Source of the DNA: Singulisphaera sp. GP187
Lineage (GTDB): Bacteria > Chloroflexota > Chloroflexia > Chloroflexales > Roseiflexaceae
Length of the DNA stretch: 32,794 bases
Direction: 5' to 3'
NCBI GenBank assembly: GCA_943328915.2
Contig: CALQBW020000012.1
Coordinates: 1-32,794, forward strand
The position numbers and the translations under genes are program-made. The notes under the pieces were generated by a model. That model saw only the letters and a list, made by a program, of their open reading frames with translations, was not told where the DNA came from and did no database searches. Positions 2,730 through 18,950 of this stretch are shown here, piece by piece. Within the stretch, counting starts at the first letter, position 1; every line of letters starts with the position of its first letter.

Positions 2730-4964
2730 CTATACCTCCGGTTCCCAATCGAAGCGCAATGCTTCGGGGGGTAATTGACGAATCTCTTCGGTTTCTTTGC
2801 GGTGCAACAAGGCCGTTTTGACAATCAAGCGCAAGCGTGCCCAATTATCGACGGTCACCGGCACCGGCGTGGTGATTTTTTTGGCGGCATAACGGGCGGC
2901 GTTACGCCCCATGGCCCGATAGGTGTCGACGGTCATACTCGGCGACTGCGAAAAGAGCTCGAGGTTGTTGAGTCGCGCTAAATCGACGCGGTGAATAATC
3001 GACGTGCCCCGCGATTGGATACCAATCGCAATCCCCGAACCACTCAATTGCGCACCCACATGGCCGATTTCGGCGCAATCAGACGAATGCCAGATACGCA
3101 CAATCCGCCCAATCAAGCCCTCTTCGGCAATCCCCGTCAACACCGCTTTGAGGACTTCTTCGTGAGGGATCCCGCCTATGGTCCGGGTAATTATCCGCCC
3201 AAATGCTGGCCCAATCGCCACCACCACCTCGGTATGCCCACCCCGCTTGGCGTCACCATACCGGTCGAGTCCGTCGATAGGCAAGCCCAAGCGGTCGGCA
3301 ATAAAGTCGCGGGGGGATTTGGCTTGGCGAATGTTGGCGATTTCGTCCCAGCGAGCCCCTTCCACTCGGTAACCCGTCCCTGGGCCGTTGTAGTCGTTGG
3401 GGTCATTGATGGCGCTTTTGACGACAAAGTCACGGTCAAAAATAGCCGCGGGCTGTAGGTAGTCACCGGCAATCCGTTGCCGCCCCATGGTGAGCAGGTT
3501 TTCGGCAGTCTGGGCAAACCCGCGCCGCGCCAAGGCTGCCACCACATCCATCACACTGCGGTCGCCCGCCAAAAAGTCATCGGCAGCAGCCAAGTCAGGA
3601 ACAATATCGCGCACAGGCATGTCGTCACTCGAATGCGCTACCACCGCTGCTTCGACTTCGATATCACTTATTATGGGGAAGCCCAATTCGGCATAGACTG
3701 CTTGGATAGCCTGCGCCCCGGCGCGACGAATGTCGGCAGCTTCAGCTTCGCTGATCGAGCGCGTACCACCATCGATTTGCATATCGCGTTGCAATACGGC
3801 GTAATCGTCTAAATCATCCGCATCGAAATTACCACCGCCAAACATATTGTCACGGCGAGGGACAGCGCTATACCCAGAAAAAATAAAATCAGTGCCGGGA
3901 ATAAATTGCAACATCAATTTGGCCGATTTGCGGATGGCCGAATGCGATGCGAGGGCATCGTTGCCCGAGGCAACTTCCAGCCCTAACAACGACGCCATCA
4001 GATTTTCGGCCAATACGGCCCGCACACCGCCCGGCAATGATTCGGGCAAGGCAATACACGATATCGAGCCGTTTTGCACCCCTTGGCTGCCAGCGCCGCG
4101 GGTCACACACAAACAGCGTGCCTCGAGGTAGAGCATCGAGCGTTGTTCGGCGCTGCCCATCAATGCTTCTGAGCCGGTGCCCGACGTAAACCGCACTTTG
4201 ACGCCCCGCGATGCATACGCCGATGCCAGGAAGCCTTTGGACCACGGCGAATCATCGCCATCGATAAAGGCTTGTTCGGTGCCGTAGACCGACAATGTCT
4301 CGGCGTAGGTGGTTAGTCCCTTCATCGCCAAGCGCAACCCCAAGGCTTCTTCGACGGCACATTGGGTCATCACGCCGCCACGCCCCGTCTGGGCCCCTAC
4401 CAAAATCGCGAGGGCATTAAACGGCGCTGCCCGCGCCACGCCGACTGTCGTCTCGATTTCCGAAAACCCGCGCAAGGCGGCTTCGGCGGCATCTGCCGCC
4501 AACAGCGCCGGGTTTTCGCGGCGGTTGGTGACGTGGGCTTGATTGGCGGGGACGCGCCGCACGCGCATTTTTGACAAACCGTTCATCATCTCGAGCACAT
4601 TCATATGGCGCATGATGTCGACTAATTTAGCCGGCGTACACCCGGTTGCGAGGCGCAACAAGGTATTGCGGGGAATGTTGATATCGGCAAGCATATGCGC
4701 AAATTGCAACGATTCAAGCGCCATCGCCTCAGGGGCCACGGTTAAATCAATACCGTGGTGGGCGATAAAAGTATCGAGCGTATCGAAATCTGCTTCTTGC
4801 CGGCCATCCAGCTCGACCACCCGCCCGGCCACGATACGCAATGACGGTTGCGGGTCATATGGGCTATCGGCAACCGTTAATCCAGCTTCTGGCCACGGCT
4901 CGACAAAAGTTTCTTTGTTGATATCGCGCTCATCCAAGGCACGGAAACGTAGCAGATTCGTCAT
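2730..4964 (-). CDS. pduCD: Fused large and medium subunits of B12-dependent diol/glycerol dehydratase
   Basis: Adenosylcobalamin-dependent radical enzyme that dehydrates 1,2-propanediol or glycerol; cytosolic. Residues 1 to about 565 match the large subunit PduC, and about 590 to 735 match the medium subunit PduD ('AIGPAFG', 'LSGSGIAIGIQSRGTS', 'LNNLELF', 'NAARYAAK'), in one 744-residue chain with a short linker. Relative to the Klebsiella large subunit the numbering is offset by one. Gln142, His144, Glu171, Glu222, Glu281, Gln297, Asp336 and Ser363 align with its substrate- and metal-binding residues Q141, H143, E170, E221, E280, Q296, D335 and S362. The position of Gln336 is Ala337 here. 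The PduD N-terminal microcompartment-targeting segment is absent. AAGGA precedes the ATG at 4964. No reactivase, shell or aldehyde dehydrogenase gene is visible in the window. Confidence 0.93.
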   Translation of the reverse strand: MTNLLRFRALDERDINKETFVEPWPEAGLTVADSPYDPQPSLRIVAGRVVELDGRQEADFDTLDTFIAHHGIDLTVAPEAMALESLQFAHMLADINIPRNTLLRLATGCTPAKLVDIMRHMNVLEMMNGLSKMRVRRVPANQAHVTNRRENPALLAADAAEAALRGFSEIETTVGVARAAPFNALAILVGAQTGRGGVMTQCAVEEALGLRLAMKGLTTYAETLSVYGTEQAFIDGDDSPWSKGFLASAYASRGVKVRFTSGTGSEALMGSAEQRSMLYLEARCLCVTRGAGSQGVQNGSISCIALPESLPGGVRAVLAENLMASLLGLEVASGNDALASHSAIRKSAKLMLQFIPGTDFIFSGYSAVPRRDNMFGGGNFDADDLDDYAVLQRDMQIDGGTRSISEAEAADIRRAGAQAIQAVYAELGFPIISDIEVEAAVVAHSSDDMPVRDIVPDLAAADDFLAGDRSVMDVVAALARRGFAQTAENLLTMGRQRIAGDYLQPAAIFDRDFVVKSAINDPNDYNGPGTGYRVEGARWDEIANIRQAKSPRDFIADRLGLPIDGLDRYGDAKRGGHTEVVVAIGPAFGRIITRTIGGIPHEEVLKAVLTGIAEEGLIGRIVRIWHSSDCAEIGHVGAQLSGSGIAIGIQSRGTSIIHRVDLARLNNLELFSQSPSMTVDTYRAMGRNAARYAAKKITTPVPVTVDNWARLRLIVKTALLHRKETEEIRQLPPEALRFDWEPEV

Positions 4965-5858: not shown

Positions 5859-8800
5859 ATGGTAGCGCGCCACCGCATCGCAGTCCAAGTCGGCATGCAT
5901 GACCCGTATTGGGTACACGTCCGCGAAGCGGTGATTCGGCATGCCGTACAACGCAACGTCGAAGTCGTCCAACTGGGGACGCCGTCACGAAATATTACGA
6001 ATCTCGAGTTGTTGTCCCACGAAATTGATGAGTATTTCGAAGAATTACTGGTGCAAGATGTCCATGGATTGATCTGTAATACCGTTGCAGAGCCCTTGTT
6101 GCGCCGGATTGTGACACATGGCATCCCGATTATTGATGCCTCCGAGAGTTTTTTGCGCTATCCATTATTTACGTCACGGCGTGGATTATACGATGCCGCC
6201 CACACGGTCGGGCGGTGGATTGCAGAACGACTGCAACCCAATGCGCGGGTGTTAATCGTTGGTGGCTACGACGATATGGGGTTGTCACGCCTAATGGGAA
6301 TGCGTGATGCATTTGCGACCGTACCAACAATCCAGTTAATTCATATCCCCTGTGAATGGCTGTATCACGATGGAGTGGCAGCCACCGAAACCTGGGTGAA
6401 TAGCGATGTGACACCGATTGATGCCGTATTTGGCTTGTCGGATTCACTTGCAATTGCCGGGCGGGACGTACTTGCCCGCCACAATCGCCTGCCACCCCAC
6501 ACCTTGATTACCGGGATCAACGGCGACCCCATGATGATGGCCGAGATCAATCACGGCCAGATGCATATGACCGTCGAGACGGTGATTGACTCATTTGCTG
6601 CCCAAATGATTGATTTGGCGATTTACGGTATCCAAACTAAACAACTGCCTGCCACTTATGACCCACCACGCCGCGTTATTGAGCGGCACAATGTGGCCCA
6701 AATCGCCGTCGAAAAATTAGTTTCTTTTGCCGATTTAACCAATCAACTCGTCGGCGTGAATCGCCAAAGTGAACAACGCCGATTACGCCAAATCGAAACC
6801 AGCATTGCCATCACCCAACGTGTAGGGGCAATCCTCGATCACACCCAACTCATCAGCGAAATCAGTAACTTGATACGCATTAATTATGGCTATGACCGTG
6901 TGTTGTTGTGGCGATTTGATGAGCTTGGTCAACTGCATACCGATGCTGTACCTGCACCACCACTTGCAGGAACTGCGCTCGGTGCAGCCCTCCAAGACCA
7001 ACGACCTATTTTCATCCCCGACACATCGTTTAGTACCCGCTACGTGAGCGATGTGTTCCAGCGCGACACCCGTACGCGCGTGATTATCCCGATTCGTTTC
7101 AACAATACGATTACCGGCCTCCTCGATGTGCAAAGTACAACCCTCGTACCTCACACGCATGACGAAATCGACGGGTTGCAATTGGTGGCCGACCAAATCG
7201 GGATTGCCTTGCGCAATATCGACTTATATCAAGCCGCCAAAACCGCCCAATATGCGGCTGAGCAGGCTGACCGCCTCAAAACCCGCTTGTTGGCAAATGT
7301 GAGCCATGAATTGCGCACCCCTCTGCACATCATCCTTGGTTATAGTCAATTACTTCTCACCGACCCGACACCCCATGGTGTCGCCCTCCACGATAGTGTG
7401 CGCGCTGACATTGTGACCATCCAGCGCAGTGCGGAGCATTTGATTTTGTTGATTAATGACTTGCTCGATTTGTCACGGGCCGAAATCGACGAGCTGGTGT
7501 TGTTTGCCGAGACCATTTCTCCGCATGCTCTGATTACCCAGATTTTTGGCGAATTGCGTACCACATTCCACCATCCGCTGGTGACGTGGGATTTGCAGAT
7601 CCCAGATGAATTACCGATGGTGTATGTAGACCCGGTACGGGTACGCCAAATTATCACCAATTTGTTGAGTAATGCGGCCAAGTTCACCGATCAGGGAACA
7701 ATCACCCTCGGTGTTTGCGTCAGTCCACCTTATTTGCATATTTGGGTCAAGGATACGGGGAATGGCATTGATCTCGCACATCAAGCGCGCATTTTTGAAC
7801 CATTTGTCACCATTGATCAGCAGTACCAATCACCTAATGGGGTAGGCTTAGGGCTTGCAATTACGCGACGGTTGGTGGCACTCCATCAAGGATTATTGAA
7901 TGTTGAAAGTCAATTCGGCGTAGGAAGTACCTTCAACGCCTACTTCCCTTTACGGGGGCTGGATGCCACTACACTTCCGCCGCAACCTTCAACTTTACCG
8001 GCGGTGCTGATAACCCTGAGCGAAACGGACCAAATCCAACCAGCACTGCAACAGGTCGCCCAAAGAAATCAACTCACTATCAAATGCGCACAAACAATCA
8101 CCCAATTAGAGGAATTGATCCGTCACTATCACCCAGTGGCCATCAGCTGGGATAGTAGCAATTCGTTTGATGAAGCAGCGCCCCTCATCGAGTATATCCA
8201 AACACATGCGTTGCTTGGACGGATACCGTTTCTGGTCTACAACAATACAAATACCTTTGGGACTACCCCTATTTTGCAAAAACCAATGAGCAATGATTCA
8301 TTCATGGCGTCCATTCGCCTGTTGGTAACACAACACCATGCGGAAGAAACGCGATTTTTGATTGTCGATGATCACCCCCAAATGGATGTATTGTACCGAA
8401 GCATCATTACGCGAACCTTTACCAATGCAACATTTACTTCCTGTCATGACGGTATCCAGGCGCGCGAAATGTTACTCAACAGTGCCATTCCACATGCAAT
8501 TATTTTGGATTTGGTGATGCCCGAAGGTGATGGGTTTGAATTGCTGGCTTGGATTCGCAATAACGAACAATTCCAGTCAGTGCCGGTGATTATTATTAGT
8601 GGCAGGATACTTACCCGCAACGAGATTCAGCAGCTTAATTACCCAAATACGGTCATGCGTCCCAAACTGGGTGGCACTATCGATACTATTGATCAATTAT
8701 TGCTGGGGATTGCGCGCGGGATTACGGTGAACCCGCCACACCTGAGTAGTGTGGCCCGCATTGCCATGACCTACATCCAGCAACACTATACCCAGCGGGT

Positions 8801-9083
8801 GAGTCGTGAGCAGATTGCAAGTGTGGTGGGCGTCAGCGAAAGCTACCTCACCCAAGTTTTCCAGCTTGAATTAGGGGTAACGCCATGGGTATATCTCACA
8901 CGGTATCGGATCGCTATTGCCTGCCAATTATTGCGTGATCGATCCGATGCCATCACCGATGTTGCCATTGCGGTCGGATTTGATGATCCCGGCTACTTTA
9001 GCAAAGTCTTCCGTCACGAAATTGGTCAATCACCGCGTGAATACCGGAACAATAAAAATGAAGCAACTCCATTTCGAGGATGA
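5859..9083 (+). CDS. Hybrid sensor: PBP-like, GAF, histidine kinase, two receivers, AraC domain
   Basis: A 1074-residue soluble sensor and transcription regulator, with no signal peptide or membrane segment. Domains in order: LacI/periplasmic-binding-protein-like ligand domain (about 1-275); GAF (310-455); HisKA (472-545) with the H-box 'NVSHELRTPLH' and His483; ATPase (590-700) with N-box 'QIITNLLSNAAKF' and 'DTGNGID', 'GVGLGLAI'; a degenerate receiver (711-822); a complete receiver (829-950) with the 'VDD' pair and Asp884; and an AraC-type double helix-turn-helix (975-1068) ending 'GFDDPGYFSKVFRHEIGQSPREYR'. The first and last domains resemble the pairing in E. coli XylR, here with a phosphorelay between them. 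The sugar transporter genes and GH4 gene just downstream suggest it binds the same sugar in the cytoplasm and controls them (inference). The ATG at 5859 has GGAGGG 8 bases upstream. Confidence 0.92.
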   Translation: MVARHRIAVQVGMHDPYWVHVREAVIRHAVQRNVEVVQLGTPSRNITNLELLSHEIDEYFEELLVQDVHGLICNTVAEPLLRRIVTHGIPIIDASESFLRYPLFTSRRGLYDAAHTVGRWIAERLQPNARVLIVGGYDDMGLSRLMGMRDAFATVPTIQLIHIPCEWLYHDGVAATETWVNSDVTPIDAVFGLSDSLAIAGRDVLARHNRLPPHTLITGINGDPMMMAEINHGQMHMTVETVIDSFAAQMIDLAIYGIQTKQLPATYDPPRRVIERHNVAQIAVEKLVSFADLTNQLVGVNRQSEQRRLRQIETSIAITQRVGAILDHTQLISEISNLIRINYGYDRVLLWRFDELGQLHTDAVPAPPLAGTALGAALQDQRPIFIPDTSFSTRYVSDVFQRDTRTRVIIPIRFNNTITGLLDVQSTTLVPHTHDEIDGLQLVADQIGIALRNIDLYQAAKTAQYAAEQADRLKTRLLANVSHELRTPLHIILGYSQLLLTDPTPHGVALHDSVRADIVTIQRSAEHLILLINDLLDLSRAEIDELVLFAETISPHALITQIFGELRTTFHHPLVTWDLQIPDELPMVYVDPVRVRQIITNLLSNAAKFTDQGTITLGVCVSPPYLHIWVKDTGNGIDLAHQARIFEPFVTIDQQYQSPNGVGLGLAITRRLVALHQGLLNVESQFGVGSTFNAYFPLRGLDATTLPPQPSTLPAVLITLSETDQIQPALQQVAQRNQLTIKCAQTITQLEELIRHYHPVAISWDSSNSFDEAAPLIEYIQTHALLGRIPFLVYNNTNTFGTTPILQKPMSNDSFMASIRLLVTQHHAEETRFLIVDDHPQMDVLYRSIITRTFTNATFTSCHDGIQAREMLLNSAIPHAIILDLVMPEGDGFELLAWIRNNEQFQSVPVIIISGRILTRNEIQQLNYPNTVMRPKLGGTIDTIDQLLLGIARGITVNPPHLSSVARIAMTYIQQHYTQRVSREQIASVVGVSESYLTQVFQLELGVTPWVYLTRYRIAIACQLLRDRSDAITDVAIAVGFDDPGYFSKVFRHEIGQSPREYRNNKNEATPFRG

Positions 9084-9110
9084 CATTGACGCTAAAGATA
9101 CCGCCTGACA

Positions 9111-9135
9111 ATTGCGTGGTGCGCAATCATGTTTT
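9111..9135 (+). terminator. Weak hairpin after the sensor gene
   Basis: A 6-base-pair stem (9111-9116 with 9122-9127) and a 5-base loop are followed within a few bases by TTTT (9132-9135). It lies 28 bases after the sensor stop. The stem is short, so this may be an inefficient terminator that lets some transcription into the receiver and transporter genes. Confidence 0.3.
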
Positions 9136-9294
9136 CCACGAGCCCGAAATCGTTGTTTCCAACAGCTTTATAAAAAATAGCAGATTTTTCACTTTTTTTC
9201 CCACTATTTTGTCGTTTTATCCAAGCCAATCAAAGGAACACGATGTAATGTAACTATTAAGGAAAGCAAGGTTCGGAAAGTGGGAGTGGATGCA

Positions 9295-9651
9295 ATGGCG
9301 GCGGAGCCGAGCGCGGTACTTATTATCGAACACGACCCTTTGATTGAGTCACTGTATAACCGAACACTCCAACCAGAATATACCGTATTGACGGCACACA
9401 CTATTGCCCAGTGTAAGACATTTTGTAATCGTTCAGATTTACGCGTCGTGATAATTGAACCCCATCGCCCTGACGGATTAGGTCCAGAATTATTAACGTT
9501 GGTGCAACAACAGTTCCACGATCGAAACATACCGGTTATTGTCTGTAGTGTCCTGAACTCCCAACGAACTACCCAAGATGCGGGTATATTTCGCTACTTA
9601 GTAAAACCAATTTCTCCAGATGTATTACGGCAACTCATTCTCCAGATATAA
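9295..9651 (+). CDS. Stand-alone receiver-domain protein with Glu at the phosphorylation site
   Basis: A 118-residue protein that is only a response-regulator receiver fold, with no output domain. It keeps the hydrophobic beta strands ('AVLIIEHDP', 'VVIIEP', 'IPVIVCSV') and the late Lys in 'LVKPIS'. The acidic pair is Glu12-His13 instead of two acidic residues, and the phospho-acceptor Asp is Glu55 ('IIEPHRPDG'). Normal Mg-dependent phosphorylation is therefore unlikely, and Glu55 may mimic the phosphorylated state. The ATG at 9295 with GGGAG upstream puts the start right at the receiver fold; an in-frame GTG at 9280 is an alternative. It is 58 bases ahead of the permease gene on the same strand, so it probably heads the transporter operon. 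Confidence 0.82.
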   Translation: MAAEPSAVLIIEHDPLIESLYNRTLQPEYTVLTAHTIAQCKTFCNRSDLRVVIIEPHRPDGLGPELLTLVQQQFHDRNIPVIVCSVLNSQRTTQDAGIFRYLVKPISPDVLRQLILQI

Positions 9652-9709
9652 TAAAATTACGTAACGTGTGATCAGAAGGTCACTGTTTTTGCAGCGAGGG
9701 AACGTCACG

Positions 9710-10606
9710 ATGACTACACACCGCCAACCACGATTGGCAGCACGGCGTGAGGCCTTGTACGCATGGGCGTTTGTGGCACCGAGTTTAATTGGGTTTCTTG
9801 TATTTTTTGCGGTGCCATCGATCCGTGGGTTGTTGATGAGTTTTACCGACTGGGATTTGTTACGTCCGGCCAAATTTGTTGGGGTTGCCAATTATGTCCG
9901 TCTCCTCGGCGATGCTGATTTTCGTCATGCATTAAAAGTCACGGCATACTATGTTATTCTCAATATTCCCATCCAAACAATGTTGGCATTGGGGATGGCG
10001 GTGATGATGGACAAATTTTCGAAGTCGACGATTATTCGTGGGATCTTGGTGTTGCCGTGGTTGTTACCAAATATCGTCGTGGCACTGATTTGGTTATGGT
10101 TACTCGACCCCACCATGGGATTCCTCAATCAAATCATCATGGGGCTGGGTTTTCAGCGTCAGCCTTTTTTGGGGTCGATCGATCAAGCAATGCCGACAAT
10201 TGCCGCCATCAATATTTGGCGGCACGCAGGCTATACGGCGATTTTGATTTATGCCGGGTTGCAAACCATTCCCAAGGAACTCTACGAGGCGGCAGCGATT
10301 GATGGTGCCAATGAGCGGCAGAAGTTTTTGGGGATAACGATACCATTGCTTCGCCCAGTACTCGTATTTGTGTTGGTCACTACAATTATTGGTTCGTTTC
10401 AGATTTTTGACACGATTGCGATTACCACCAAGGGTGGACCGGTCGATGCGACGCGGGTGGTCTATTGGTACATCTATGAATATGCATTTGTCCGCTTCAA
10501 GATGGGCTATGCCACGACAATTTCGGTGGCACTATTCGCCATCCTGATTACGATTACCTTCATCCAGATGCGCTACTTCAACGCCAATTCGTCGGATTTA
10601 GATTAG
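9710..10606 (+). CDS. Sugar ABC transporter permease, MalF/UgpA type
   Basis: Inner-membrane permease of a carbohydrate (CUT1) ABC importer. The 298-residue protein has about six hydrophobic segments, starting with 'YAWAFVAPSLIGFLVFFAV'. It also has the cytoplasmic EAA loop that docks the ATPase, 'EAAAIDGANERQKFLGITIP', at about residues 200-220. A longer upstream in-frame start exists, but the ATG at 9710 is preceded by GAGGG and gives the usual family N-terminus. The second permease follows after 24 bases. No ATPase gene is in the operon, so a shared MsmK/UgpC-type ATPase encoded elsewhere is likely. Confidence 0.93.
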   Translation: MTTHRQPRLAARREALYAWAFVAPSLIGFLVFFAVPSIRGLLMSFTDWDLLRPAKFVGVANYVRLLGDADFRHALKVTAYYVILNIPIQTMLALGMAVMMDKFSKSTIIRGILVLPWLLPNIVVALIWLWLLDPTMGFLNQIIMGLGFQRQPFLGSIDQAMPTIAAINIWRHAGYTAILIYAGLQTIPKELYEAAAIDGANERQKFLGITIPLLRPVLVFVLVTTIIGSFQIFDTIAITTKGGPVDATRVVYWYIYEYAFVRFKMGYATTISVALFAILITITFIQMRYFNANSSDLD

Positions 10607-10630
10607 TAGAGGCAACTGAGGAGTACGATT

Positions 10631-11533
10631 ATGAGCCGCGCGCAATCAGGCACAGCCCCCACAATCCAAATTTCGAGCATCTTGGCATGGGTTGCCTTTG
10701 GTTTGGTCATGGTGGTGACGTTATTCCCTGTGTATTGGGTACTACGCACTTCCCTATCTGATCACAAAGAAATCTATGTCCAAACGGCAGTAATTTGGCC
10801 GGTCGGATTAACCCTCGACAACTTCAAGCGGGTACTTGGGATGTTTACGGCAGAGCAATCTGTGGCCATGGGTGGCACCGTAACAGGAATTAATTTTTGG
10901 TTGTATCTGCGGAATTCCTTTGTTGTTTCGACCTTTTTGGTGGCCGGCCAGACTTTTTTTAGTGCGATGGCAGCCTATGCATTTGCTCGCTTACGCTTCA
11001 CCGGTCGCGATCAACTCTTTTTCTTTTATTTGACTGCCATGATGATTCCCGGAGTCGTGACGTTGATTCCCAACTTCATATTGATTCGTGATCTTAAATG
11101 GTTAGATACGTTTCAAGGGATTATGGCGCCAGGGTTTTTGATGACGCCATTCACCGTGTTCTTTTTGCGACAATTCTTCCTAGGTATCAATCACGAACTC
11201 GAGGAAGCGGCGACAATTGATGGCGCCAACATCCCGACGATATTTTTGCGCGTGGCCTTGCCATTGAGCATTCCCGCCTTGAGTACACTAGCGATTTTGC
11301 AGTTCATTGCCACCTGGAACGACTATCTCTGGCCGTTTTTGGTTGGCAAAAAAGAAGCAGTGCGCGTCCTGACGGTCGCATTAGCAATCTTCCAGTCACA
11401 GACTCCCCAAGGAGCACCAGACTGGGGTGGCTTGATGGCCGGGACGGCACTGAGTCTTATCCCCACACTGGTTATTTTCTTAGTCTTTGGACGCCGGGCG
11501 GTCAATGCGATTCAGTTTACCGGCTTCCGCTGA
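10631..11533 (+). CDS. Sugar ABC transporter permease, MalG/UgpE type
   Basis: Second membrane subunit of the same CUT1 importer; 300 residues with about six membrane segments. The EAA loop reads 'EEAATIDGANIPTIFLRVAL', and the C-terminus 'RRAVNAIQFTGFR' ends in the way typical of MalG/UgpE proteins. GAGGAG precedes the ATG at 10631. The solute-binding gene follows 67 bases later on the same strand. The pair MalF-type plus MalG-type should form the transmembrane heterodimer. Confidence 0.93.
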   Translation: MSRAQSGTAPTIQISSILAWVAFGLVMVVTLFPVYWVLRTSLSDHKEIYVQTAVIWPVGLTLDNFKRVLGMFTAEQSVAMGGTVTGINFWLYLRNSFVVSTFLVAGQTFFSAMAAYAFARLRFTGRDQLFFFYLTAMMIPGVVTLIPNFILIRDLKWLDTFQGIMAPGFLMTPFTVFFLRQFFLGINHELEEAATIDGANIPTIFLRVALPLSIPALSTLAILQFIATWNDYLWPFLVGKKEAVRVLTVALAIFQSQTPQGAPDWGGLMAGTALSLIPTLVIFLVFGRRAVNAIQFTGFR

Positions 11534-11600
11534 TTCATTTGGCATCAACGGTGCATTCGCACCGAGTTGCATACAGGTTGTTTTCGTTTTAGGAGGACTC

Positions 11601-13001
11601 ATGCGTTCACGTATCAACGCGTTGGCATTCGCACTCATGGTGATCACCAGCATGCTCTTGGTAGCATGTGGTGCCAAAGCACCTGCAGCCGAGCCGACCA
11701 CGGCACCAGATGCCGCCGCCGCCCCTGCTGCCACCGCAGCTCCTTCGACCGAAGCTGTCACCATCCGTTACGGTTTGTGGGACGGCAATCAACAGCCGGC
11801 CTACGAAGCTTGTGCAGCTGCCTTCACCAAGACCAACCCAAACATCACTGTGAAGGTTGAGCAAGCAGGTTGGGGCGACTACTGGAACGGCGTGCAGACC
11901 GGAATGGTCAGCGACACCGCACCCGACGTCTTTACCAATCACTTGGCCAAGTATCCTGAGTTTGCTTCCAAGCAACAATTGGTCGACCTCAAGCCATTCA
12001 TCGACCGTGATGGCGTCGACACCAAGCAATACTTGGCTGGTTTGGCCGATCTTTGGGGCCGCGATGGCAAGACCTATGGTTTGCCCAAGGACTGGGACAC
12101 CATTGCCGTTGTGTACAACCAAGATATGCTCGACAAAGCCGGCGTTACCGTTGACGAACTCAACAACGCCGAGTGGAATGCCAAGGATGGCGGTTCGTTC
12201 AGTCAAATCATCAAGAAGTTGACCGTCGATGCCAACGGCAAGAACGCCCTTGACAAAGACTTCGACAAGACCAAAGTCGTGCAATACGGCTTTATTCCTG
12301 GCGGTGGTGGTGGTGCATATGGTCAGACCCAATGGAGCCATTGGGCCGTTTCGAACGGCTTCAAGTTCAACGACGGTCTCTATGCCACCAAGTACTACTA
12401 TGACGATCCCAAGTTGGCCGAAACCATTCAATGGTATGCCAACTTGAATCTCGTTGATGGCGTAGCCCCCGCATTGGCCGACATCAAGAGCCTCGGCGCC
12501 AACGCCCTCTTCACCGGCGGTAAGGGTGCGTTGACCACCGATGGTTCATGGATGATTGGTGCATACACCAAGGACACCAAGTTCAAAGTCGGCTTCGCTC
12601 GTTTGCCAAAGGGCCCAGAAGGTCGCAAGTCGATGTTCAACGGTCTCGCCGACTCAATCTGGGTTGGTAGCAAGCACCAAGAAGAATCCTGGCAGTGGTT
12701 GAAGTTCGCCTCATCACCAGCCTGTGAAAACATCGTTGGTAGCTATGGCGTCGTATTCCCAGCCGTTCAATCAGGCGTAGATGCCGCTTTGGCAGCCTAC
12801 AAAGCCAAGGGTCTCGACGTCTCAGCCTACACGGCTCAGGCCACCGAAGCCAATGGTACCTTCTTGTTCCCCGTAACTGACCATGCGTCAGAAATCGGAC
12901 CAATCATGGATGCAATGATGGACAGCATTATGCTTGGCCAAAAGACTGCCGCCGATGGTCTCAAAGAAGGCAACGACCAAGTCAACGCCCTCTTCAAGTA
13001 A
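11601..13001 (+). CDS. Sugar ABC transporter solute-binding lipoprotein, family 1
   Basis: Extracytoplasmic sugar receptor for the adjacent permeases; 466 residues. The lipoprotein signal peptide has its lipobox at Cys23 ('LLVACGAK'), followed by an Ala/Pro/Thr linker to about residue 50. The mature part shows the family 1 pattern: 'AFTKTNPNITVKVEQAGW', 'DVFTNHLAKYPEF', 'YGLPKDWDTIAVVYNQDML', 'GKGALTTDGSWMIGAY' and 'SWQWLKFASSPACENI'. The ATG at 11601 has AGGAGG upstream; an earlier in-frame start lies inside the permease gene and lacks a signal peptide. The family covers maltose, raffinose, melibiose and glycerol-phosphate receptors; the neighbouring GH4 gene favours an alpha-galactoside or related sugar. 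A strong terminator follows. Confidence 0.93.
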   Translation: MRSRINALAFALMVITSMLLVACGAKAPAAEPTTAPDAAAAPAATAAPSTEAVTIRYGLWDGNQQPAYEACAAAFTKTNPNITVKVEQAGWGDYWNGVQTGMVSDTAPDVFTNHLAKYPEFASKQQLVDLKPFIDRDGVDTKQYLAGLADLWGRDGKTYGLPKDWDTIAVVYNQDMLDKAGVTVDELNNAEWNAKDGGSFSQIIKKLTVDANGKNALDKDFDKTKVVQYGFIPGGGGGAYGQTQWSHWAVSNGFKFNDGLYATKYYYDDPKLAETIQWYANLNLVDGVAPALADIKSLGANALFTGGKGALTTDGSWMIGAYTKDTKFKVGFARLPKGPEGRKSMFNGLADSIWVGSKHQEESWQWLKFASSPACENIVGSYGVVFPAVQSGVDAALAAYKAKGLDVSAYTAQATEANGTFLFPVTDHASEIGPIMDAMMDSIMLGQKTAADGLKEGNDQVNALFK

Positions 13002-13016
13002 CTTCGGGTTACACCG

Positions 13017-13057
13017 ACGCTTGGTGGCTGGGGCAACCCATCCACCAAGCGTTTTTT
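13017..13057 (+). terminator. Rho-independent terminator of the sugar transporter operon
   Basis: A perfect 11-base-pair stem (13017-13027 with 13042-13052) and a 14-base loop run into a T tract (13052-13057). It stands 15 bases after the binding-protein stop and separates the transporter operon from the GH4 gene. Confidence 0.88.
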
Positions 13058-13088
13058 ATTTCCGTGAAGAATATACCCAAACTCAGTT

Positions 13089-13124
13089 TTGACAATGTAC
13101 TTCCTACAGTGCTACACCGGTGTA
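13089..13124 (+). promoter_or_regulatory. Candidate promoter and operator palindrome upstream of the GH4 gene
   Basis: TTGACA at 13089-13094 is a perfect -35 box, but the base stretch 17 bases on (CTACAC) is a poor -10 box. A perfect 12-base palindrome, TACACCGGTGTA, occupies 13113-13124, where a -10 region would be. The arrangement fits a regulated promoter, possibly activator dependent. The leader to the ATG at 13230 would be about 100 bases. Confidence 0.4.
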
Positions 13125-13229
13125 CCCACTGGAAAATGATATCGAGAGAACCGCGATACCTTTTTTACGATGAACCTCTCGTTGCCTAGTTTCTATCATC
13201 TCACTTGGTCAGAAAGGAATCGACAATTC

Positions 13230-14528
13230 ATGGCTATTATTACCTTTATTGGCGCTGGGAGTACTGTTTTTGCAAAAAACTTGCTGGGCGACATTTTGTC
13301 GTTCCCTGAGCTCTCCGATGCGACCATTCGCTTGTTTGATATCGACACCGAACGACTCAAGACATCGGAAGTCGTTGCGCACAAAGTGGCCGAAGCCTTG
13401 GGCGCAAAACCAACTATCGTTGCCACCACCGATCGCAAAAAAGCCCTCGATGGTGCCGATTATGCTATCGCCATGTTCCAAGTAGGGGGCTACAAACCGT
13501 CGACAGTCATCGACTTTGACATCCCCAAACGCTACGGCTTGCGCCAAACCATCGCCGACACTCTCGGCATCGGCGGGATTATGCGCGGCTTGCGCACTAT
13601 CCCCGTGATGCTCGAAATGTGCCGCGATATGGAACAAGTCGCCGGAGATATTACGTTCCTCAATTACGTCAACCCGATGGCGATGAACTGCTGGGCTATG
13701 TCACGCGCCACCCCCATCACCACCGTCGGCTTGTGCCACTCGGTACAAGGTACTGCCGAACAATTGGCCGATGACATCGGCGTGCCCATCGATGAAATCA
13801 ACTATGTCAGCGCCGGGATCAACCACATGGCCTTTTATCTCAAATTCGAAAAAGATGGTCAGAGCCTCTACCCCGCCATCCAAAAAGTCTACAACGAAAA
13901 ACGTGTTCCCGATTGGAACCGCGTACGCTACGAAATTTTCAACCGCTTCGGCTACTTTGTTACCGAATCAAGCGAACATTTCGCCGAATATACTCCGTGG
14001 TTCATCAAGCGCGACCGCCCCGAACTCATCGAAGACTTCAACATCCCAATCGATGAATACATTCGCCGTTGCGAAAACCAAATCGCCGGCTGGCATCAGC
14101 TCCGCAGCGATTTGCTCACCTCCAACGCCCCCATCGAAGTGCGCCGGAGCCACGAATATGGCTCACTCATCATCCATAGCATGGAAACAGGCCAGCCCCG
14201 TGTGGTCTATGGCAACGTGCCCAACAAAGGCCTCATCGACAACTTGCCCGCAGGTTGCTGTGTAGAAGTCCCCGTATTGGTCGACAAAAGCGGCTTGCAA
14301 CCGACCAAAATCGGCGCATTACCACCTCACTTGGCGGCAATGATGCAAACAAATATTAACGTGCAGTCAATGACAGTTGAAGCCGCATTGACCGGCAAGC
14401 GCGAACATGTCTACCACGCAGCCGCCTTTGACCCACACACCGCCGCCGAGCTTTCGCTCGACCAGATTTGGAATTTGTGCGACGATTTGATTGCCGCCCA
14501 CGGCGATATGATGCCCACGTTGAAGTAG
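13230..14528 (+). CDS. melA: GH4 family glycosidase, alpha-galactosidase (MelA-like)
   Basis: Cytoplasmic glycoside hydrolase of family 4, which uses NAD and a divalent metal and cleaves by an oxidation-elimination route. The 432-residue protein begins with the dinucleotide-binding motif 'FIGAGSTVFAKNL' (residues 6-18). Metal ligands are expected at Cys169 in 'GLCHSVQGT' and His199 in 'GINHMAFYL', both present. The order 'LNYVNPMAMNCWA', 'CHSVQGT', 'NHMAFYLKF' follows alpha-galactosidases of the MelA group rather than the phospho-alpha-glucosidases. Other GH4 specificities (alpha-glucosidase, glucuronidase) remain possible. The ATG at 13230 was preferred to an upstream start because the nucleotide-binding motif then lies at the N-terminus; an AAAGGA lies upstream. 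It probably hydrolyses the sugar brought in by the preceding transporter. Confidence 0.88.
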   Translation: MAIITFIGAGSTVFAKNLLGDILSFPELSDATIRLFDIDTERLKTSEVVAHKVAEALGAKPTIVATTDRKKALDGADYAIAMFQVGGYKPSTVIDFDIPKRYGLRQTIADTLGIGGIMRGLRTIPVMLEMCRDMEQVAGDITFLNYVNPMAMNCWAMSRATPITTVGLCHSVQGTAEQLADDIGVPIDEINYVSAGINHMAFYLKFEKDGQSLYPAIQKVYNEKRVPDWNRVRYEIFNRFGYFVTESSEHFAEYTPWFIKRDRPELIEDFNIPIDEYIRRCENQIAGWHQLRSDLLTSNAPIEVRRSHEYGSLIIHSMETGQPRVVYGNVPNKGLIDNLPAGCCVEVPVLVDKSGLQPTKIGALPPHLAAMMQTNINVQSMTVEAALTGKREHVYHAAAFDPHTAAELSLDQIWNLCDDLIAAHGDMMPTLK

Positions 14529-15653: not shown

Positions 15654-16727
15654 ATGACACGAATCATTGTCGCCGGACATCTTTGTCTTGATATCATCCC
15701 CGATCTCCGCACACTACCGGTGTCAGCAATGGAACTCCCCGGCCGGCTCAACGAAGTGGGACCGTTAACCATGGCGCTGGGCGGAGCGGTGGCAAACACG
15801 GGCCTCACCCTGCATACATTGGGGAGCGAAGTGACGTTGGTAGGGTTGTGTGGCTCCGATTTCGTGGGGAATGCCATCTATCAAGCGCTCTATACCCGCG
15901 ACCCACAGCTGGTACGGGCCTTGACCATTGATCCCCGGCAATCGACATCGTATTCGGTGGTAGTGGCGCCGAGTGGTCAAGATCGCTCGTTTTGGTACTA
16001 CCCTGGGACCACTGCCCACCTCGATATGCCACATATCACCCCTCATCTCGCCGATGCAGATTGGTTGCATATCGGGTACCCGCCGATGCTCACTGCATTG
16101 ATGGCAGACGATGCAGCGCCACTCGTTGCCTTGCTCAAAGCGGCGCACACGCATGGATTAACCACGAGCATCGACATGGTGCTCCCCGATCCAAATGCGC
16201 CTTCTGGACAATACCCTTGGCCGTATATCCTCTCGCGCATCTTGCCACATACCGATGTGTTTATCCCGAGTGCCAGCGAAATCTGTGCCATGCTCCGCCC
16301 TGACCTGTATGCCCTTTGGGGGCATGATTGTGATATGCAATTGAGCCACGCAGATGCCACCAGTATATGTACGGAATTAATAGCACTCGGCGTGGCAGTT
16401 GCCGGTATCAAACTGGGGAGCCGTGGGCTCTATCTGCATACCGGGCCAGCCACTGCGTTCACCCATCTCCCCTGGCTCGATACTGCCCAATGGGCCAGTC
16501 AACGCCACGCACAACCCGCCTACCCCGTCACAGTGGCGGGCACGGTGGGGGCAGGGGATGCCTGCGTTGCCGGCTTGATTCATGGCATTACAAAAAAACT
16601 CCCTGTACACGTGTGTGCACAGGGAGCATGCGCCGTGGCGGCTTGTTGTGTGGAAGGAGTCGACGCCGTCAGTGGGATTGTGGCGTGGGACGCTACCCTG
16701 CGCCGCTTTGGCATCACCCCAGATTAA
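15654..16727 (+). CDS. PfkB-family carbohydrate kinase
   Basis: Cytoplasmic ribokinase-like enzyme that phosphorylates a sugar or sugar-like alcohol with ATP; 357 residues. The N-terminal strand 'IIVAGHLCLDIIPDL', the glycine pair 'ALGGAVANTGLTLHTLG' (about 40-55) and the C-terminal signature 'GTVGAGDACVAG' with catalytic Asp302 define the family. Residues 58-70 ('VTLVGLCGSDFVG') match ribokinase and fructokinase relatives. The region around 245-285 is longer than usual. Substrate is undetermined; phosphorylation of sugar freed by the upstream GH4 enzyme is possible, but there is no operon link. The ATG at 15654 with AGAGG upstream was chosen over an earlier ATG at 15615 that lacks a ribosome site. 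Its stop codon overlaps the stop of the next, convergent gene by 4 bases. Confidence 0.87.
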   Translation: MTRIIVAGHLCLDIIPDLRTLPVSAMELPGRLNEVGPLTMALGGAVANTGLTLHTLGSEVTLVGLCGSDFVGNAIYQALYTRDPQLVRALTIDPRQSTSYSVVVAPSGQDRSFWYYPGTTAHLDMPHITPHLADADWLHIGYPPMLTALMADDAAPLVALLKAAHTHGLTTSIDMVLPDPNAPSGQYPWPYILSRILPHTDVFIPSASEICAMLRPDLYALWGHDCDMQLSHADATSICTELIALGVAVAGIKLGSRGLYLHTGPATAFTHLPWLDTAQWASQRHAQPAYPVTVAGTVGAGDACVAGLIHGITKKLPVHVCAQGACAVAACCVEGVDAVSGIVAWDATLRRFGITPD

Positions 16728-18919
16728 TCTGCTGTCTGCAAGACAATCGAGATGCCACCCCGTAAGGCGGCGGGGATGTCTTGCGCGGCACCGTGATAGC
16801 GCGCGGCTTCGGCATCGCCAAGGATGACTGCCACCAAAGCCTGTACGATTTGGGCCTCGCTATAGCCGGCAATCGCTTGACAGGCGTCAATGATATCCGC
16901 AGGCAACCCTGCCGCCAACAAATGCGCCAAGGTCAGCGCCGTAATGTCGCGTTTGACTGTTACCAAAGCCTTGGTCACCGCAGGTACGTAACGGCTCATG
17001 TCACCCGCCAGCGTTTCGGTTTCGAAGTCACCATCAGAAAATCCGGAGGGCAGTGCATTGAACACTCGGCTCGACGGTACCTGCTTTGCCCGACTCTGGC
17101 GTGGTGATTGTGATGCCGAGGTTAGTTTATCAGGCACCGCACGATTCGTACGAGGACTACTCTTGCGTGAACTAATCGCAGGTCCCGAAAGACTGGCGAC
17201 TATCATTTGTGGCATATACATCACTTGGTCATTGAGTACCCCCGCACTGCCATGCCAGTCATAGGCCAGTTCTTGTGCGACCACAGTCTTGACCGCCGTG
17301 CCAATCACTTTGGCATCGCTGGCGTGGGTCGCCACTGCCACTACCGCCGTCTGCTCCGACAGTAGTTGATGCTGCTCGGCCCACGCTTGTTGGGCATCTC
17401 CTACCAAATCAGCGAGGTGCAGGGCAGCAATCGTACGCACAAAATCATTCGTCAGCGTATCGGGAACTGTTGTCGTGGTAATCGGGATATGTACCGTACC
17501 AACCCGCAACTGTGGGGTGACTACACGATCAAGTACTGCCGTCAACAATGCCGTATCGCCGACGTATTGTAGGCGCCGGCTTTGTTGCCACGCCACGACA
17601 CCTTCACCATACTCGATAGCCACATCAAGCACCGGTGTTGCCTGGATCCGGCGCACAATCCGCGCCATGGCATCGTCGATGCGCTCGTTGGGCGTAATCA
17701 CTTCACAAAAGCCACCCGTAATTTGGGCCAATTTTTGGAGCTGACCATCGGCCGGGGCAAAGCCAATCACCAGCGGGTAAATCCGGTGGCCAGATTGCAC
17801 TGCGCGATTTGCGACGGTCTCGACATTGTATGTTTCACCGTCGGTAATCAAAATCACATCACAGTCAGTCTCATTGGTAGGCATATCAAGGACATATTCA
17901 ACAGCCTTCACCGTTTCGGTGCCACCGAGGTCAGAATTGACGGTTTTGATCCACGCATTCATCTGTTTGCGCACCGCATTGCCCACCGTCATCAAACCGG
18001 CAGTGACGTCTTGGACCTCACTACCAAAACGCGTGACGGCAATCGAGTCGCCGTCCTTGAGCAACTGCAACAACCGTACCACCGCTTGGCGGGCTTGGGT
18101 GATAGAGGTACCACCCATCGACCCCGAGCAATCAATCAACAGTTTGACATGCATGGGGGCAACGACCGGTGCGGCGTCAATTTTGGGAATGGTCACGTAA
18201 TTTGCAAACCAATGTTGGCGTTCATAATTTGTGGTCAAACTGCCACGATAATCGGCATAGCCTTGCGCCAACACCACCACATCACGATTCATACTCACGC
18301 CATCAATCGCAATGGTCGTGACGGTTTCATCACTCGCAATGGTAGCGATGTGACTCGGCACTTCAAATGTACTGGCTGCCCGCCCCCATACCGTCAATTG
18401 ATAGGTGAACGGATAACGCACAAATAAATCACTAAACGGCACTTGTTCGGGGCGCATCGATGTGGGTGGCGTGCCATAGCGGGGGGCAATGGTCGTGGGC
18501 AAACTCACCCGCACCACGCCGTCGTTGGGTACCAACATTTCACCATAGGTGATATGGATGGCGACTGCTTCGCCTGCAGGCACATTGCCGATTTGGATGG
18601 TGTAGAGGTCCGCAACCTGCGTCACCAAAATTGCCGTGTCGCCGGCGTCAACGGCTTCGGTGTATTTTTTGCTGGCTTTGGGTTTGGCAAATACCTGCGA
18701 TTGATAGACCACACCACGTACATGAATCTCTGCTTGGAGCAATACCGCAGCCGCTGGCAAGGGGAATGTATACATCACTTCCAATGGGTCATGCGTATTG
18801 TTATGGTAGCGTTGCTTGATTGTCATCCGCAGAAACAACCCGACTAGCGAACCAACTGCGTCAACGCCCAATAACGGAATGACCACTCCACTTTTTGTTT
18901 CGATTTGTGCTTCTGACAT
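16724..18919 (-). CDS. VIT and VWA domain protein
   Basis: A 731-residue protein with an N-terminal VIT domain (about 3-135, with 'YTFPLPAAAVLLQAEIHV' and 'VFAKPKASKKYTEAVDAGDT') and a von Willebrand A domain (about 255-430). The A domain has the metal-site motif 'DCSGSMG' (Asp263, Ser265, Ser267) and a later 'ILITDGETYN'. The C-terminal third holds a further helical region. There is no signal peptide or membrane segment, so a cytoplasmic location is likely, unlike the inter-alpha-trypsin-inhibitor relatives of animals. The family mediates protein-protein contact via a bound metal ion; the partner here is unknown. AGGAG precedes the ATG at 18919, and a good promoter lies just upstream. It stands alone, divergent from the LPDTG/sortase pair. 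Confidence 0.9.
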   Translation of the reverse strand: MSEAQIETKSGVVIPLLGVDAVGSLVGLFLRMTIKQRYHNNTHDPLEVMYTFPLPAAAVLLQAEIHVRGVVYQSQVFAKPKASKKYTEAVDAGDTAILVTQVADLYTIQIGNVPAGEAVAIHITYGEMLVPNDGVVRVSLPTTIAPRYGTPPTSMRPEQVPFSDLFVRYPFTYQLTVWGRAASTFEVPSHIATIASDETVTTIAIDGVSMNRDVVVLAQGYADYRGSLTTNYERQHWFANYVTIPKIDAAPVVAPMHVKLLIDCSGSMGGTSITQARQAVVRLLQLLKDGDSIAVTRFGSEVQDVTAGLMTVGNAVRKQMNAWIKTVNSDLGGTETVKAVEYVLDMPTNETDCDVILITDGETYNVETVANRAVQSGHRIYPLVIGFAPADGQLQKLAQITGGFCEVITPNERIDDAMARIVRRIQATPVLDVAIEYGEGVVAWQQSRRLQYVGDTALLTAVLDRVVTPQLRVGTVHIPITTTTVPDTLTNDFVRTIAALHLADLVGDAQQAWAEQHQLLSEQTAVVAVATHASDAKVIGTAVKTVVAQELAYDWHGSAGVLNDQVMYMPQMIVASLSGPAISSRKSSPRTNRAVPDKLTSASQSPRQSRAKQVPSSRVFNALPSGFSDGDFETETLAGDMSRYVPAVTKALVTVKRDITALTLAHLLAAGLPADIIDACQAIAGYSEAQIVQALVAVILGDAEAARYHGAAQDIPAALRGGISIVLQTAD

Positions 18920-18950
18920 GTGAATTCTCCTTTTTCTATTTCTCAAGATG

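Follow-up and report, generated by a model that had tools for sequence, protein, structure and literature searches.

A putative cytoplasmic phosphorelay regulator of glycoside uptake and its predicted pseudo-receiver partner in Chloroflexota

Hybrid two-component systems (HTCSs) have been termed unique to Bacteroidetes (PMC3878776), and their DNA binding depends on phosphorylation (PMC11253607). In BT1754 of Bacteroides thetaiotaomicron, a sugar sensor of the periplasmic-binding-protein (PBP) type, a kinase, a receiver and an AraC domain are combined in one chain (PMC3243724, PMC3878776). Direct repeats have been predicted as binding sites of Bacteroides HTCSs, with site and spacer adding up to 21 bp (16+5 or 12+9) or 20 bp (14+6) (PMC3878776). 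A cytoplasmic LacI/PBP-type sensor shares one chain with an AraC domain in E. coli XylR (cited in PMC11253607). Aspartate-less receivers most often carry Glu instead, and this phosphate mimic activates in some cases but not in others (PMC12632262); the same article calls the molecular mechanisms of bacterial pseudo-receivers a mystery. Here, we analysed a 32,794-nucleotide stretch of DNA (the window) from a freshwater Chloroflexota bacterium (contig CALQBW020000012.1). Our best reading is that it encodes an activator of glycoside uptake that is gated by a phosphorelay and partnered by a pseudo-receiver.

Domain architecture and predicted localization of the regulator

The regulator gene (5859-9083, + strand) starts with ATG and encodes 1,074 amino acids. 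A sequence-only reading of the same DNA had proposed that one chain holds a PBP-like domain, a GAF domain, a kinase, a receiver and an AraC domain, and we obtained Pfam matches in exactly that order. The N-terminal PBP-type ligand-binding domain (Peripla_BP_4, RbsB/BT1754-like; residues 1-295, 5859-6743), assigned by Pfam, structure model and profile search, matched Pfam at residues 16-255 barely above the curated cut-off (E 7e-9). It is followed by the GAF domain (residues 329-451, 6843-7211; E 9e-13) and a histidine kinase core (residues 474-699, 7278-7955) composed of HisKA (474-542, E 1.5e-17) and HATPase_c (591-699, E 2.4e-22). A canonical receiver, REC2 (residues ~832-952, 8352-8714; Response_reg at 834-916, E 3.4e-12), and an AraC-type DNA-binding domain (residues ~965-1064, 8751-9050; HTH_18 at 986-1064, E 1.4e-21) complete the protein. 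That is, kinase, receiver and AraC domain, the output part of an HTCS, are united in a single chain. A chance assembly of domains within this open reading frame was ruled out by the domain E-values together with their conservation.

Both residues previously proposed as phospho-sites are correctly placed. H483 (codon 7305-7307) is the histidine within VSHELRTP, and D884 (codon 8508-8510) ends strand 3 of REC2 (IILDLVMP), in which D837, D838 and K936 are conserved as well. With the exception of L035 (see below), all aligned relatives covering these positions have H483 and D884, and D837, K936 and the ATPase motifs are kept with few or no changes.

Two receivers had been claimed. REC2 fits this description, whereas the stretch between kinase and REC2, REC1 (residues ~713-823, 7995-8327; assigned by alignment, model and receiver matches of relatives), is degenerate: it has no Pfam match in this protein and lacks the acidic pair, while D765 and K808 are retained. 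REC1 is degenerate in all aligned relatives. The REC1 of L039 does match Pfam, giving two receiver stretches in that protein, and the REC1 of L036 matches a receiver in tblastn (E 1e-6). In the full-length structure model, which is poor (overall pLDDT 67) and served solely for the strand order of REC1, the region has the alternating strand/helix order. As it is homologous to receivers but has lost one or more of the five key residues, REC1 is, judged by alignment, best called a pseudo-receiver.

The structure of the PBP domain was predicted with confidence (pLDDT 89.6). Its best structural matches were sugar-binding proteins (5dte and ribose-binding proteins), and 2x7x, the fructose-binding domain of BT1754, was matched too. 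A profile search gave an RbsB-type protein as the closest type (E 8.5e-21), with 2x7x at E 1.4e-12; E. coli XylR was not named among the 57 PDB sequences found at E up to 1e-6. The sequence-only reading had taken XylR as its comparison, and in this respect it has to be corrected in favour of RbsB-type sensors and BT1754. D15, P16, W18, E96, W167, S194, D195 and N221 are invariant across the aligned orthologues; several of them coincide with what we take to be sugar-contact positions of RbsB, which we regard as a lead only.

The regulator is predicted to be soluble and cytoplasmic, in agreement with the earlier proposal. Kyte-Doolittle means of 19-residue windows stayed at or below 1.26 along the whole chain and at or below 0.66 in the first 60 windows; neither a signal peptide nor a membrane helix was detected. 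As positive controls, a permease and the binding protein encoded in the window reached 2.26 and 2.33, and a PBP-type HTCS of Hymenobacter displayed a helix of 1.9 between PBP and kinase, where the regulator carries its GAF domain. Single windows of 1.6-1.9 occur in some relatives; those of L034 and L028 fall in REC1, a region expected to contain buried strands. On hydropathy, with these three controls, we rejected an exported sensor.

Conservation of the family, its neighbourhood and a candidate operator

Orthologues were found in 9 of 11 genomes of the genus, source genome included, with identities of 83-86% and 53-54%. Outside the genus they occur at about 40% identity in other Roseiflexaceae genera and at 38% in G255 (locus L058), a member of a distant Chloroflexota family, where the domain order is identical and GAF is present. 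The closest relatives that bear a name are Roseiflexaceae MAGs, one or more of which came from a lake. A search for the domain order across genomes, suggested earlier as a check, accordingly recovered it in Roseiflexaceae and one distant Chloroflexota family, and its persistence at 83-86%, about 54% and about 40% identity points to an established family. The many relatives with this architecture rule out a fusion unique to this genome. The GAF-bearing form appears uncommon, since the sensor profile exceeded 250 bits in only 6 of 400 genomes sampled evenly from the phylum. Our literature search found no description of the architecture in Chloroflexota.

One relative is built differently. L035 of genome G015 (L035:1476-4079) encodes 868 residues with PBP, GAF, a kinase-like region and an AraC domain; both receivers are absent, and its histidine box reads GEELRAPL, with Glu in place of the phospho-His. 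No stand-alone receiver was detected in the L035 contig by tblastn, nor in the G015 genome by a protein-level search; the absence from the genome is tentative because the same search, at its threshold, also missed the homologues of the genus, which are more diverged from the query. The joint loss of the histidine and both receivers, seen in one genome, would be expected if these parts form one functional unit.

The gene adjoining the regulator encodes a stand-alone receiver of 123 amino acids (9280-9651, + strand; Response_reg match and alignment) and heads the predicted target operon. Its phospho-Asp site is occupied by Glu (E60, codon 9457-9459). The same replacement, with Lys and Ser/Thr kept, was found in all stand-alone receivers examined (those of the window, L026, L028, L031, L032, L033, L036, L058, G008, G011 and G022). 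The protein is a receiver domain with its phospho-Asp replaced, that is, an aspartate-less receiver, and it is probably unable to be phosphorylated.

Downstream on the + strand follow ABC permeases of UgpA/MalF type (9668-10606) and UgpE/MalG type (10631-11533), a solute-binding lipoprotein (SBP_bac_1, 11601-13001) and a GH4 enzyme (13170-14528), all identified by profile matches. The binding protein frame was listed from 11487, and the ATG at 11601 with its lipobox-like leader is the likelier start. With 691 bits against NF011657 (cut-off 486) and a CHSV motif, the GH4 protein fits the model of the alpha-galactosidase subfamily and is a predicted member of it. The matches at 9668-14528 agree with the claim that the regulator stands beside sugar-uptake genes and a GH4 gene. 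In L025, L026, L028, L031 and L032, the genes for the stand-alone receiver, two permeases and the binding protein lie either downstream of the regulator or divergently from it, with GH4 close by (the second permease of L025 was swallowed by a longer overlapping frame in our simple ORF calling). Parts of this order are seen on the shorter contigs L027, L029 and L036 and in L033, which contains frameshifts. The linkage is kept down to about 40% regulator identity. In L058, regulator and stand-alone receiver are followed by an Opp-kind ABC ATPase (assigned from sequence) and SBP_bac_5, and in G011 the stand-alone receiver is separated from the regulator by about 9 kb and adjoins an Opp-type binding protein, a GH4 gene also being in the vicinity; from these two orders, regulator and receiver stay paired while the transporter type switches.

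Some further genes vary around this core. An FG-GAP/ASPIC-UnbV repeat protein is encoded between binding protein and GH4 in L028 (8829-10478) and L031 (15454-17103), and L031 and L032 have a membrane protein there as well; the window has neither. On the other side of the regulator, an open reading frame on the - strand (2730-4964) fuses the large and medium subunits of a diol/glycerol dehydratase and is followed by a small conserved frame (2317-2844, - strand) that may be the small subunit. The dehydratase also neighbours the regulator in L025, L029, L030, L031 and L032. Given a GH4 alpha-galactosidase near this dehydratase, a galactosyl-glycerol might be guessed as the substrate, an idea that gained no other support. 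Further away, 16724-18946 (- strand) encodes a VIT and VWA protein similar to members of the marine sortase target family, with a score well under the family cut-off.

The promoter of the operon contains a candidate operator, a direct repeat of 21-bp period (TTTTCCCACTATTTTGTCGTTTTATCCAAG, 9196-9225, + strand), identified by a cross-lineage period scan, shuffles and a pattern search within the genus. Repeat pairs of this period are TTTTTTCCCAC/TTTTATCCAAG in the window, ATTATTCCCAT/AATCTTCCAAG in L032, TATTGTCCAAC/TATTCTCCAAG in L033 and TTTTGTCCAAG/TTTTGTCCAAG in L036. The joint cross-lineage score at period 21 was 71 of 88, compared to at most 61 for the other periods from 14 to 35 and at most 58 in 150 dinucleotide shuffles. 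Within the window's own promoter the repeat scored 9 of 13, which about 10% of shuffles equalled; single-promoter statistics are weak, and only the cross-lineage test is convincing. The pattern TNNTCCNA-N13-TNNTCCAAG was present at the locus of the regulator in every genus genome encoding it (9/9), its remaining matches in the genus fall inside long open frames, and the reversed pattern, used as control, had zero matches in the genus. There was no match in G003 and none at this locus in G008; the contig of G008 ends at the pseudo-receiver, so the upstream region is missing and the absence of the regulator is at least partly due to the contig break. Since the pattern was chosen after the alignments had been seen, the genus count serves to check consistency; a fairer test comes from the period scan and the shuffles, although our attention was first drawn to period 21 by eye as well. 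The pattern was not found beside the orthologues L034, L035 and L058 or beside the Chloroflexales paralogues, and a search of 9060-9330 revealed no consensus sigma-70 promoter. In L039 (9243-9446), a suggestive TGTCCATG/TCTCCAAG pair lies 21 bp apart between a LacI-type Chloroflexales paralogue and the binding protein and permeases that follow it. The gap between regulator and operon holds different short repeat arrays, or Ns, in L025 (13202-13754), L026 (3516-4177) and L027 (5310-5699). In close relatives the last ~110 bp before the operon, with the operator, are conserved despite these variable arrays.

The adjoining operon had been named as the regulator's target before, and we consider this likely because an operator of 21-bp period recurs and the linkage is conserved. 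Both the conserved DNA signals and the gene order point to control of the neighbouring sugar-uptake genes by the regulator.

Proposed mechanism and alternative explanations

We propose, with a probability of roughly two in three, that this single cytoplasmic chain is a hybrid two-component regulator in which a sugar-gated phosphorelay would, via phosphorylated D884 and the AraC domain, activate the operon, with feedback by the pseudo-receiver. An intracellular sugar, either imported or released from an imported glycoside, would bind the N-terminal PBP domain, and this ligand and the GAF input would jointly set the activity of a dimeric histidine kinase. Phosphate would then move from H483 to D884 of REC2, freeing the AraC domain to bind the direct repeat at 9196-9225. 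The bound domain would activate the genes for pseudo-receiver, both permeases and binding protein, and probably GH4 too. The outline of ligand-gated autophosphorylation, transfer to the receiver, AraC release and activation at a tandem repeat follows what has been shown for HTCS proteins (PMC11253607). The Glu-site pseudo-receiver would most likely bind to the kinase or elsewhere on the regulator; because its gene is the first behind the predicted operator, feedback is the simplest guess for its role.

The relative L035 is a counterpoint to this explanation. It has dispensed with the relay, keeping PBP, GAF, ATPase and AraC domains, and together with the degenerate REC1 of all relatives it would fit a protein in which, as in XylR, conformational change in the PBP domain is the main control on the AraC domain, while kinase and receivers are a scaffold for dimerisation and coupling with minor regulatory weight. 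For the family as a whole we consider this unlikely, since the conservation of H483, D884, D837, K936 and the ATPase motifs in the other aligned relatives would be hard to keep without use. Quite improbable is also that the 21-bp repeat serves another regulator, leaving the hybrid kinase in control of other genes. A LacI-family gene does lie on the far side of the regulator in L029 and L032, but LacI-family operators are palindromes and the repeat here is direct, with the period of AraC/HTCS sites; moreover, no LacI-type gene was present among the window neighbours scanned, and repeat and regulator co-occur in the genus.

We give a similarly low, marginally smaller weight to a phosphorelay-gated repressor, or to a pseudo-receiver that acts as activating partner instead of feedback element. 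AraC-type tandem sites adjoining promoters are usually activator sites, which argues against repression. On the other hand, the sign is not fixed by the sequence, and a Glu in a receiver mimics phosphate in some cases but not in all (PMC12632262). A strict HTCS of the Bacteroides type with exported sensor would have the same output order and an RbsB/BT1754-type sensor, yet it is very improbable here, given that neither signal peptide nor membrane helix was found and that a GAF domain replaces the hydrophobic helix of the Hymenobacter protein.

From the phosphorelay-gated activator we tentatively extend to a broader picture, to which we give somewhat less than an even chance. In it, a soluble sugar-sensing phosphorelay regulator and a dedicated Glu-site pseudo-receiver, supplied by its own target operon as feedback partner, would form a two-gene cytoplasmic module used with varied transporters across Chloroflexota, which in L035 may have been reduced to a ligand-only switch lacking the histidine and the receivers.

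Comparison with known systems

Within the order, Chloroflexales proteins of ~1200 aa (L037-L043 and L047) share the order sensor-HisKA-HATPase-REC1-REC2-AraC, but their sensor is a LacI-type Peripla_BP_3 domain. No GAF match was found in the three that were scanned (L037, L039 and L040), and no Glu-site stand-alone receiver adjoins these genes in the loci searched. With XylR the regulator has in common a PBP/LacI-type sensor and an AraC domain in a chain lacking signal or membrane segment. XylR has neither kinase nor receiver, whereas here kinase and receivers lie between sensor and AraC domain, and the sensor is nearer to RbsB/BT1754-type domains. The product of 9280-9651 resembles described aspartate-less receivers (PMC12632262) in its Response_reg match, the Glu at the Asp site and the kept Lys and Ser/Thr; it differs in being a stand-alone domain conserved beside one hybrid-kinase family.

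The closest known kind is the Bacteroides HTCS BT1754, and the present protein is predicted to be a cytoplasmic counterpart of these regulators, which are known from gut bacteria. The likeness extends to the sensor fold (match to 2x7x) and to direct-repeat sites of 21-bp period, as predicted for several HTCSs (PMC3878776). BT1754 senses in the periplasm, whereas the regulator is predicted to be cytoplasmic and has in addition a GAF domain, a second, degenerate receiver and a pseudo-receiver encoded by a gene of its own. An HTCS has a periplasmic, membrane-anchored N-terminal sensor (PMC3878776); hydropathy with positive controls revealed none in the regulator, and we therefore withhold the name, while by analogy the view stands that it would work like an HTCS. 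The family comes with an operator and a target operon, both predicted, and with a conserved pseudo-receiver that has a testable role, and L035, as a natural comparison lacking phospho-histidine and receivers, makes it possible to ask what the phosphorelay contributes to ligand-driven AraC regulation. HTCSs have been described as a Bacteroidetes speciality for reading extracytoplasmic sugars; here, the same output stands behind a predicted intracellular sugar receptor.
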